DNA from: Rhizomucor pusillus
Lineage: Eukaryota; Mucoromycota; Mucoromycetes; Mucorales; Lichtheimiaceae
DNA length: 64,000 nucleotides
Assembly (NCBI GenBank): GCA_900175165.2
Contig: FWWN02000695.1
Coordinates: 78,747-142,746 of the forward strand
Direction: 5' to 3'
Shown: one piece after another, positions 12,852 through 35,269 of the stretch
How the letters are laid out: every line of letters begins with the position of its first letter
How positions within the stretch are numbered: position 1 is the first letter of the stretch
Notes under the pieces: model-generated
Databases searched by the model: none
Told to the model about the DNA's origin: nothing
The model's input: only the letters and a program-made list of their open reading frames with translations
Translations under genes and position numbers: made by a program

Positions 12852-15800
12852 ATGTCGCAGCAATTTCCACTTAGTATGTCTTAGAAAGGAGGCCTAGCCA
12901 TATCACAATTGGTATCCTAAGTTACTGCTATCTAGGCTGGTTCTTCATCAAGAACAACAACGGTTACGTGCTAACCGCTTCGCAAAACAAGGAGGGCGCA
13001 CATATTGTGATCTCCACTCTTCGAACTAGCGAGCCTGATGCCCAACTATGGCGTCACGATGGCGAAGGTCGCCTTTACAACAAGGCCACCGATCTTGTTA
13101 TGGACGTTGCAAAGGGTAAGCCATTCGTTTTATCAAACTATACATTTCTTCTTTTTCGTTGCGCGCGCGCGTCTTGCTGCTGTGATGATAACGAGCAAGC
13201 TGTCATCGATTGCCTTGGGCGGAGAATCGAGTACACCAAACTCGGAGCACCCGGATGTCCTATTTTTCAAGTTGGAGTACAAGAAGCCGAATCTGGAAAG
13301 ATTCGAGCAACCAATCTGTCACAGCAGCAAAGTCGCCGCCAAAATAATGGAAACGCTTGGAATCTGACACATTCGAATCATACTGCTAGGCAACATCAAG
13401 GCGGGCTCAGAATTAGTGCTGCAGCAGCAATCAGCTGCCAAAGACGCCGGCCAAAAGTTTGCTGTTTCATCGGACGGACACATTTGTCTTGCTGGAAAAT
13501 CGTCTCTTGTGCTGGGCATCAAGGAGTCGTTCTTTTCTCGAAGCGAGGGCTTGCATGTGCATCTCCAATCTGCTGATAAGCGCAGCAAGCAACAGCACTG
13601 GAACTTCGTGCTTCCCGTCACCAAATCTTCATCCAGCGCTTCAACTCAGCCGAAGCGCAGTCCTAGCACTAGCACTATGGATAGCATATCCGGAACACCG
13701 GTCAGCAAGACTGTCGCTCAAGTCAAAGCAGACGGTAGTACACAGTCTAGACCTCGTTTGTCAAGTCTCTGTTTACTAACACAACATTACCCCGCTTTTA
13801 CGTAGACGCGCGCTCTGTCCGTTCCGCATCTACTGCCTCCAGCTTGGATCAAGAGGAGGCTCAAAAGGTTCCTGTAGGAACTTTCCCTGACACTCCATTC
13901 TTCCTAAAGTCCCAGCACAGTGGCTATTTCATTGGTTCAGAGGCATCCGCTTTGAACCAATCTGGTGCTCGTTTGACTGTTGACGCTTTGCGCAAGACCG
14001 GATATGATAGCCAACTGTGGACGTTTGATAGCGCGACTGGTCGCATTATCAACAAGCACTCTGGCCTTGCTCTCACTGCCGATACCCTCAAGGATGATGC
14101 CTATGTCTGTCAAGCTGCAGTGTCCGAAAAAGACTTGAAGATCCAAAGCTGGACTCTTACTCCCAACAATGAGCTCTGTCTCCGCCAAGATCCCAGCTGG
14201 TTCCTTGGTCTCAAGGAAAGCTGGTTCAGTCTTAACCGCGAAGGCGCTCACGTTCATATCCAAAAGAAGGCTAAATCTGGACACGATCATCAAAAGTTCA
14301 CCGTCGTACTTCCCGTTTTCAAGAAGCGCACCGTGGAAAGCACTATTACCGAGGTGCAGCAGGGCGTCTTCCCTGATGGCTGGTTCTTTGTCAAGAACCA
14401 GTCTACTGGCTCCGTCCTTACTGTCTCCGAAGACACTGTCATTGCTACCAAGCTAAACACTGCAAGCTACTCCAGTCAACTTTGGAGATACAAGGATGGC
14501 TTCCTCCTTAATAAAGCCTCCGGAAAGGTCTTGGATGTCCGTGGAGGTAAGTTTAGTAGCCAATAATGCAACAGAAGAAAACAAAGGATATTTATCATTC
14601 ATTGTTTTTAGGCTGCATCGCACATGGCGCACCCATCTGCCACTACGAGCAAAAGAAGAAGGACAACAAGAATCAACTTTGGGCATTGACTGCCGAAGGA
14701 TTCATCTACGTCCAATCAGAGGCAAACTTGGTCCTGGCCGTTTTTGAAGGCAAGGAGCACGTAAGCTTGCAGAACAAGCTGTCTGGTGATCACAAGGAGC
14801 AGCGATGGAATTTTGTTCTTCCCGTTTTCAAGAAGAAGACTAGAGAAGGTAAGCTCGACAGTCTGCTTGGAAGTGCAAACAATTCTGTAACCTCCTTTCT
14901 CGCAACAGTTGCTACCAGTTCCTCTACCGAAGCTAAAGTCTCATACCGATATGCCCAGTACCCAGCAAGCTGGTTCTTTATCCGATCATTCGTCGCTGGC
15001 TCTACCAAGGAGAATCCTTTTGTCTTGACAGCCTCGACCGAATCAAAGACTGTCACTCTCAAGCATCTTGATCGCCAAGAATGGCGCACTCAGCTTTGGA
15101 CATACTCCTCTGGTGTTCTCATCAACTATGCCAGTGGCCTCGCTTTGAGCTTGAATGGTACGTAAAAAATGTTTTTCTTTAGGGACAAAAAATTCTGAAA
15201 CGGCATCGATTGTAGCCATTTCCCAAGGTGCAAACGCGGCTCTCACTCAAATTGATACTTCTTCCCGATCCTTGCATTGGAGCCTCACTATTGACGGTTA
15301 CCTCGTCCACGGTTTCGAGCCCTCTTTGGTTCTTGCCCCTCAAGCTGCTGAAGATAAGAGCTCCTTCTCGGTCATCGCGGTCGACCACCGCGTTTCCAAG
15401 GAAGAGCGACGCTGGGGTCTGCTTCTTCCAGAAATTTCTGTCCAGGATGGATTGCAGGTCCTGGTCCGCTGGTCTGTCGCCCTCCTCCAAGAATGGAGAA
15501 AGGCTACAAAGGAAGTTTCAGCAGCCAAATCGGTCGTGCGCTTCGCTGCTTGGCCCAAGGATCACTTTTTCATTTCTACCTCTGATGGCTACGCCCTCGT
15601 TCCCGAGAAAGCTCAAGCTGAATCTTCGGTAACCCTCAAGAAGCTTGACGTCAATGCTGATATCGAGCAGTTCAAATGGACGTTCGATCAAGGTTACCTA
15701 GTCCACGTTGCTACTGGACTTGTCCTCTACTGGACGGGTGAGTTGATAAATTCTTCTGCTCTCGATAGATTTCAATGAAATTTCTAATTAACCCTTGATT

Positions 15801-33800: not shown

Positions 33801-35269
33801 TTGAGCAGGCACTTCAAGCTCATACTGTCACTGTGGAAGCTGAGTCTCGGACTCAAGAACAAGAGTCCAAAGACATCAATGTTGTTGCAGTCGTCCATGA
33901 GACAGCTGAAGAGGCCCGCGAGCGTACTCAAAAGGAGATGGCACTTATTGTTCAAGAAACCCAAGTTAAGCTCTCTGGATGGCTTGAGATTCTTATCAAG
34001 AACATCAAGTCATTGCTTCGCCGCGAGAACTGTGATGTCGAAAAGGAGCTTGCAATCCTGATTTCTGCAGCTGACAAAGACTCCAAGCTCATCTTTGAAA
34101 ACGCCAAGACCAGACTTGTTTCTGTCGGTGACTCTTTGGCTGCTTCTCACGTTGATGTTGAAGTTGCAACCATCCTTGCAAAGACTCAAACGCAGACTCT
34201 CAACTCTCTAGATACCATCAAAGGTGCGGTCTGGAGCAAGGTCACTACTTTGCAACACATTGTCTCTACATCTCGTGACGAGGATATCTCTGTCATCGAA
34301 GAGCGCATCAACAACCGAGCAACTCTTATCAAGCAGAGTGTAGACCATTCTTTGGAATACATCTCGGGAGCAGTCATCACCGCAGCTTATGAAGGCAAGA
34401 CCGTCACTTTGGTCGAGAGCACTGAGATTCCTGAATCCTTCAAGACCGTCCGTGCCTTTGCATTCGACTTGGTCGGCGCTGTTGCTGACTACCGCGCATC
34501 GGTTGCACGTGTCTGGCAAGAGATTATCAAGACCAAGACCAACACTCACCGCTACGAGATTGATTTAGTCGCCTTTGTCGATCAATGGTATCTCAAGTTC
34601 TTGGAACGCAAGAAGAATTGGACCGAAACGGATCAAACCCTTCTCCGCGTCATATTGCTTGAACTTCTCAAGGAACGCTCCTTGGAATGCGGATTTAAAG
34701 ATTCTGAAATTGATCTTCTCTGTGGTGTCTGGCGCCGTCTTTCCCTCTTCCACGATGCTTCGGCTGGTATCCGCCGTATCAAGAGCCAACAGCACGGTGG
34801 CATGATTGCAGTATCCTTCTCACCATTCTTCTCTACATCTACATTGGTTGATCTTGCTCGCACTGGATGTCTCTGCTTGCATGCCCAGTTCGGTGCTGAT
34901 ATTATCACTTCTATTGGCAACAACTCTGCTGACAGCATCTCTCGACTTTTGGGATTGCAACAAGCCGAAAACCTCGCAGTCGTCTCTTCTAACGCTCTAG
35001 TCCTCCAGCTTGCAAAGGCACATGGCGCTCGCACTGTTCACATCCATCGATCTGAGGAGGCTCACGTTGGTAGCGGCGAAACTACTCAGTTCGACGTTGA
35101 AATGGACGGCCTCGATATGCTTGCAGAAAGCTTTGAAGTCATGCTTGAACAAGAAGAAATCAAGAAAGTTTCATCAAGCGCTGCTGCTCCCTCTCGCTCT
35201 TGGTTCCAGCGAATTGTGGACACCGCTTCTGGTGCTACTGAAACTGTCCAAAAGGCTGTCATCGGTTAG
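12852..35269 (+). CDS. Giant modular protein: beta-trefoil array, helical repeats, HAD-like end
   Basis: I trace 26 exons, all with GT-AG introns: 12852-12873, 12936-13115, 13390-13734, 13806-14546, 14612-14848, 14909-15157, 15216-15737, 15808-16101, 16169-18397, 18471-18995, 19049-21478, 21534-24064, 24122-25150, 25203-27389, 27451-28749, 28810-29865, 29930-31408, 31467-31544, 31603-31716, 31776-32013, 32070-32144, 32202-32324, 32382-32467, 32518-32725, 32789-32851 and 32925-35269. All phases close, giving about 6,894 residues including 133 that contain unread (N) bases. Order: residues 1 to about 1,860, ten beta-trefoil units; about 1,950-6,600, helical repeats broken by Gly/Ala-rich apolar segments and a Lys/Glu/His repeat; about 6,620-6,800, a HAD-like fold; then WFQRIVDTASGATETVQ. 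No signal peptide is visible at MSQQFPLSWFFIK. I do not know an orthologue. A scaffold or tether role is inference from size and repeats. Confidence 0.85.
12936..19290 (+). repeat. Ten tandem beta-trefoil units (ricin/fascin-like) in the giant protein
   Basis: Each unit of about 140-190 residues opens with a WFFIK/WFFIR-like strand followed by a VLTAS-like strand. It then has a SQLW-type box, a GxLINxxSGLALD segment, a second QxW-type box, a short VLGLKES-like strand and ends with QxWxFVLPVFKK. Starts lie near 12936, 13885, 14375, 14970, 15560, 16220, 16765, 17620, 18215 and 18810. Three Q-x-W boxes per unit match ricin-B-type trefoils; the WFFIK-type opening also recalls fascin. Ricin-type units usually bind sugars, while fascin units bundle actin, and which applies cannot be read from sequence. 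Introns of phase 1 recur at matching positions in the early units. An acidic linker (17280-17570, including a run of seven Asp) separates units 7 and 8. Confidence 0.75.
25840..26930 (+). repeat. Lys/Glu/His-rich tandem repeat (KAEEHK type)
   Basis: Within exon 14, a nearly exact DNA repeat encodes blocks such as KKAEEHKAKVDEKK and AEEHKKTKCEDKK with variants (NVDDKNAEEHHKAKCEDKK). The block period is about 10-14 residues, grouped in a longer period of roughly 35-40. The composition predicts a long charged helix. Near-identity at DNA level implies recent expansion or ongoing homogenisation. The assembly gap lies in this block, consistent with collapse or unresolved copy number. Confidence 0.85.
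26153..26550. other. Assembly gap, 398 N
   Basis: A run of N inside the KAEEHK repeat of exon 14. The frame before and after the gap is the same if the stated length is right, which agrees with a coding repeat. The true size may differ. Confidence 0.98.
34440..35090 (+). other. HAD-like (2-haloacid dehalogenase-type) C-terminal domain, probably inactive
   Basis: Part of the last exon of the giant gene. The order of signatures follows L-2-haloacid dehalogenases: AFDLVGAVADYR (nucleophile-type Asp at about residue 6,628), a helical cap with TLLRVILLELLKERS, a LSLFHDASAGIRRIKS stretch, GMIAVSFSPFF, and VVSSNALVLQLAKAHGARTV. In the active family the first motif continues with Gly-Thr, a Lys sits on the third motif, and the SSN motif is followed by an acidic residue. 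Here Thr is Ala, the Lys is not visible (NNSADSISRLLGL), and the acidic residue is missing. I infer a structural, probably non-catalytic HAD fold. Family placement is by remembered motif order. Confidence 0.55.

Follow-up and report, generated by a model that had tools for sequence, protein, structure and literature searches.

The 64,000-nucleotide stretch of Rhizomucor pusillus contig FWWN02000695.1 analysed here (the window) carries on its forward strand a predicted gene at 12852-35269, the product of which runs from beta-trefoils through a long series of helical repeats to a haloacid dehalogenase (HAD)-like end. Does this giant protein represent an undescribed system, as an earlier note on this DNA had proposed, or does it belong to a known family? 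We conclude, with a probability of about 0.9, that this is a gellin gene from a member of the Mucorales close to Lichtheimia and Dichotomocladium, and that its product is a cytoplasmic protein acting in wound gelling. Judged by its sequence, the protein is a very long member of this known family, with a complete HAD end.

Ten trefoils in the order of the probable Mucorales gellins

According to Nguyen et al. 2021 (Curr Biol 31:271-282), gellins are reportedly defined by ten related trefoil Gll domains in proteins of Mucoromycota, and are said to gel the protoplasm at wounds and to respond to flow. They are reported to be restricted to Mucoromycota, to carry hydrophobic motifs for membrane binding and to unfold into sheets under flow, while their loss reportedly leads to bleeding at wounds. 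PMC12712441 credits Mucorales with gellin proteins responsible for gelling the protoplasm and gives such proteins as undetected in Glomeromycotina; gelation in Mucoromycota is also cited in PMC10023807.

The window protein carries ten related, distinct beta-trefoil Gll domains, which fill residues 1-1890. A profile built from any nine of them recovered the tenth (E 1.3e-38 to 4.8e-8, with Gll9 the weakest), in agreement with the ten units counted in the earlier note. These leave-one-out E values, like those of the helical repeats below, refer to the search of a single cut-out domain with bounds set by eye; against shuffled controls (50 of the whole protein, 50 by blocks), neither the trefoil nor the helical-repeat profiles matched at E<1e-3. 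Ricin-type trefoil matches (Pfam PF00652/PF14200) were above cut-off in two exons, and Gll1 matched the solved chain 6LCI (chain A, mdaA-1; E 1.3e-50). This chain is a single domain with almost the same sequence as the N-terminus of Mucor proteins with ten trefoils. It may be linked to work on gellins; a literature search for a paper on 6LCI/mdaA-1 found none. A predicted model of Gll6, built from six alignment rows, reached a mean pLDDT (predicted local distance difference test) of 37 and was used neither for nor against any reading; the Foldseek search made with it, which gave nothing at E<=0.001 and did not have 6LCI among the best 50 matches listed, was likewise left unused.

We searched for relatives with the first 3,000 residues as query. 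The search was limited to proteins of about 1,650-5,250 aa, so that longer gellins may be missed, and returned 28 proteins (numbered in the style P0001), comprising 22 from Mucorales, two from Mortierellaceae and two from chytrids. In 18 of the 22 Mucorales proteins, ten trefoils were detected whose best matches follow the 1-to-10 order of the window protein; nine are present in P0015 and P0020, likewise in order. Two further pieces among the 28 hold one and two trefoils. Ten related but distinct trefoils in a fixed order, in a protein that is cytoplasmic by hydropathy, are common to the Mucorales gellins and the window protein, for which a simple hydropathy check found no hydrophobic start. 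The ten trefoils and their positional match to Mucorales proteins, which fall within the published definition of gellins, therefore argue against an undescribed system. The Mortierellaceae and chytrid proteins lack positional orthology. These four (P0025-P0028, from Nowakowskiella and Actinomortierella) have 8-10 trefoils in a row in an order unlike Gll1-10, and neither helical repeats nor a HAD domain was found in them. The end stretch of P0028, SWFRRLASGAADAAG, recalls the gellin tail.

The earlier note had also presented the three architectures as not seen described together by its author. The order trefoils, helical repeats, HAD was found in at least four Mucorales database proteins, namely P0005 (10 trefoils, 13 helical repeats), P0009 (10 and 5), P0019 (10 and 3) and P0020 (9 and 6); the match to a characterised protein extends over the trefoil half only, by way of the gellin family. 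In a tree of the trefoil part, to which P0021 and P0022 contribute their first 480 residues only, the window protein groups with these two sequences with a support of 0.999. They come from Dichotomocladium and Lichtheimia, respectively, the two Lichtheimiaceae in the tree.

QxW/F occurs throughout the trefoils of the window protein, and NQxW, the signature of a ricin-type sugar site, is present only in Gll3 and Gll6. Could the protein then be a multivalent lectin, with glycan-binding trefoils and a helical part that serves as a spacer? The ricin-type character of the trefoils would fit such a protein, as would the conservation of both NQxW motifs, which the alignment shows to be kept in 20/20 orthologues. 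However, the signature occurs just twice among ten trefoils, the absence of a hydrophobic start does not favour export, and the role reported for the family is gelation. We consider a lectin improbable; one or two trefoils might nevertheless bind glycans in a protein that acts in gelation.

Several points weigh against the gellin assignment. It was made by the family definition, the Mucorales orthologues and 6LCI; the orthologues bear database names such as hypothetical or CBM13, and 6LCI is named mdaA-1. Wound gelation and flow response would be properties carried over from the published family. P0021 and P0022 have just three trefoils, matching 1, 2 and 7, ahead of their helical repeats. Only four of the 28 proteins yielded a HAD domain; many of the remaining 24 are incomplete or short models. 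Finally, two protein searches with the C-terminal part returned one protein each, P0029 (99% identical) and P0030; the latter is a HAD piece of Dichotomocladium recorded on a contig that differs in length from that of the trefoil protein P0021, so that the two are maybe separate loci in that fungus. This separation may reflect a short paralogue, a split or a gene-model error. When a short paralogue like P0021 was sought in the R. pusillus genome itself, the 20 matches listed all lay within the present gene, and helical and HAD queries gave matches in this gene only. The trefoil query gave one extra, short ricin-type trefoil match at C99:144525-144833, and the P0030 query recovered this gene and a weak HAD-like piece at C97:15538-15906 (E 4.5e-5).

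One reading frame from the trefoils to the HAD-like end

The predicted gene is read in a single frame from an ATG at 12852 to a stop codon at 35267-35269, with a coding sequence of 20,685 nt free of internal stops. Its 25 introns are all of the GT-AG type; 24 span 50-73 nt and one 274 nt. The single gene with closing phases described in the earlier note is borne out by the sequence. The initial automatic model started at 13677 and had 24 exons. The front three exons were picked by hand among 78 stop-free combinations because the resulting model completes trefoil 1. This choice is supported by 6LCI, which aligns with residues 2-184, and by the 274-nt intron: alignments with 22 of 24 relatives span it, and in 20 of these the gaps amount to no more than five letters. 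For the intron after 13734, support comes from a Mucor sequence that is continuous through the same DDARS stretch. Intron 1 lay outside the reach of the junction comparison with the 24 relatives, which is weak in low-complexity sequence. The weakest part of the model is formed by exons 18-25 (31467-32851), which are small and lie in such sequence. Exon 14 contains a Lys/Glu/His-rich tandem repeat interrupted by a run of 398 N, so that the length given for the gene is approximate.

These weak stretches bear on a second alternative, two or more adjacent genes, in which a gellin of ten trefoils would be followed by a helical/HAD gene of its own. Only 3-6 of 24 proteins match across the junctions at 31.4-32.9 kb, mostly with gaps, and the two Dichotomocladium records could be read in the same way. 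Yet exon 11 (19049-21478) leads in an unbroken frame from the last part of Gll10 into the first helical repeats, all 25 gaps in question are intron-sized with the frame kept, and trefoils, helical repeats and HAD occur in one predicted protein in four orthologues. We therefore regard separate genes as quite improbable and describe the rear part as that of a single gellin.

Between the trefoils and the HAD domain, residues 2094-6614 contain 19 helical repeats of about 155 residues apiece, close to the twenty of the earlier note, and each was recovered when the remaining 18 served as the profile (E 6.6e-54 to 4.6e-8). The 18 ten-trefoil relatives, some of which are partial, have 0-16 detected repeats. 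In the structure predicted for exon 26, which has a mean pLDDT of 62.6, three units each consist of four long helices, for which pLDDT is mostly 70-92. Pfam gave only sub-cut-off matches on the helical exons (Suppressor_APC, E 0.004; Apolipoprotein, E 0.0049), and both identities were dropped. With an equal threshold, the number of hydrophobic segments outside the trefoils was 9 in the window protein, 12 in Absidia, 1 in Rhizopus stolonifer and 0 in both Phycomyces and Backusella.

The HAD-like domain occupies residues 6615-6860 and is followed by a short tail. It matches 8wbm (E 2e-10) and 3umg (E 1e-8), whereas TIGR01428 (E 5.8e-8) reaches 33 bits, far under its 125.4-bit cut-off, and Pfam Hydrolase PF00702 only E 0.11. 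The motif-I Asp is conserved in 7/7 alignment rows from six species. The motif-IV Asp, at the place corresponding to D193, mutated in 8wbm, is absent in 6/6 species and replaced by V, T, V, I, L and V; the region of the catalytic Lys falls in a gap-rich stretch of the alignment. The domain thus differs from type II haloacid dehalogenases and cis-epoxysuccinate hydrolases in its motif-IV position and its place in a giant fusion, as well as in its low TIGR01428 score, and the earlier view of a decayed HAD fold holds. With the exon-26 model, Foldseek found the cis-epoxysuccinate hydrolase 8wbq (E 1.6e-4); the HAD assignment rests mainly on primary structure because much of the modelled HAD half is below pLDDT 50. 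The tail carries SWFQR, and a low-confidence model gives it as a helix. Among open-licence PMC papers, a set to which Nguyen et al. 2021 does not belong, no description was found of a helical or HAD part in gellins.

A possible role for the rear part

Of the giant scaffold or tether suggested in the earlier note, the giant structural protein was right in spirit; the cell-wall face is opposed by the absence of a hydrophobic start, and nothing was seen that points to the septum. That the protein is a tether at the cytoskeleton or septum, in the manner of talin, alpha-catenin or leashin, is very improbable. The rods of alpha-catenin, vinculin and talin share consecutive helical bundles with our model, but no sequence relation was found and the likeness is not above that of common helical arrangements. 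VIA-align rows with these three proteins were not read as evidence of kinship.

For the gellin, the following course of events can be proposed. Protoplasm streaming out of a cut hypha, a tube that lacks cross-walls, would pull on the protein. Some trefoils would unfold and join into sheets and others would hold membranes, so that the protoplasm sets and bleeding stops. The helical bundles might form a long compliant rod that links the trefoil sheets to an end binding a membrane or a partner. The HAD domain might be a retained scaffold, not a working enzyme. A more general proposal, which we consider doubtful, is that the rear two thirds of gellins are a force-handling machine, a rod able to extend, to grip membranes and to pass tension on to the trefoils. 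Bundle number would vary between species, some with Gly/Ala-rich membrane-seeking segments between bundles, and the HAD fold with its lost catalytic residues would be followed by an amphipathic SWFQR tail. Gll3 and Gll6 would keep a real sugar site, and the reach and stiffness of the gel would be set by repeat number.

The family combines a fixed order of trefoils with a helical part of widely differing length, and two trefoils, Gll3 and Gll6, are singled out by their conserved signature. The helical rod and pseudo-HAD offer concrete targets for work on flow-responsive gels. With the most striking gene of the window identified as a gellin, its likely role in keeping wounded hyphae that lack cross-walls from bleeding becomes directly testable.

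Feature coordinates and neighbouring genes

Table 1. Positions in the window of the predicted gellin gene and its parts, with the basis of each assignment.
Feature	Positions	Strand	Basis
Whole gene	12852..35269	+	26 exons, 6,894 codons
Gll1 (trefoil 1, residues 1-150, three exons)	12852..13637	+	6LCI, E 1.3e-50
Gll2	13877..14323	+	Leave-one-out profile, trefoil order in relatives
Gll3, with conserved NQxW	14360..14913	+	Leave-one-out profile, trefoil order, motif alignment
Gll4	14947..15511	+	Leave-one-out profile, trefoil order in relatives
Gll5	15533..16091	+	Leave-one-out profile, trefoil order in relatives
Gll6, with conserved NQxW	16201..16653	+	Leave-one-out profile, trefoil order, motif alignment
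Gll7	16756..17268	+	Leave-one-out profile, trefoil order in relatives
Gll8	17596..18093	+	Leave-one-out profile, trefoil order in relatives
Gll9 (weakest trefoil)	18241..18766	+	Leave-one-out E 4.8e-8, trefoil order in relatives
Gll10	18785..19374	+	Leave-one-out profile, trefoil order in relatives
Helical repeats 1-4	19984..21961	+	Leave-one-out profile
Helical repeats 5-8	23570..25766	+	Leave-one-out profile
Lys/Glu/His-rich tandem-repeat linker, contains N run 26153-26550	25855..26887	+	
Helical repeats 9-16	26955..31475	+	Leave-one-out profile
Helical repeats 17-19, modelled as four-helix bundles	32954..34426	+	Leave-one-out profile, predicted structure
HAD-like domain; motif-I Asp at 34466-34468	34427..35164	+	Profile matches, alignment
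C-terminal tail with SWFQR	35186..35266	+	Modelled as helix, low confidence

The gene is preceded by a DEAD-box helicase at 10047-10799 (- strand). Downstream lie a RING/zinc-ribbon protein at 39581-40564 (+), a SET-domain protein at 42943-44964 (-) and a GST C-terminal domain at 63435-63965 (+). Two open reading frames in a row at 48587-51396 (+) contain WD40 repeats and then the start of an endonuclease/phosphatase-family domain; from a search with the first of them, this locus is perhaps an inositol-polyphosphate 5-phosphatase.
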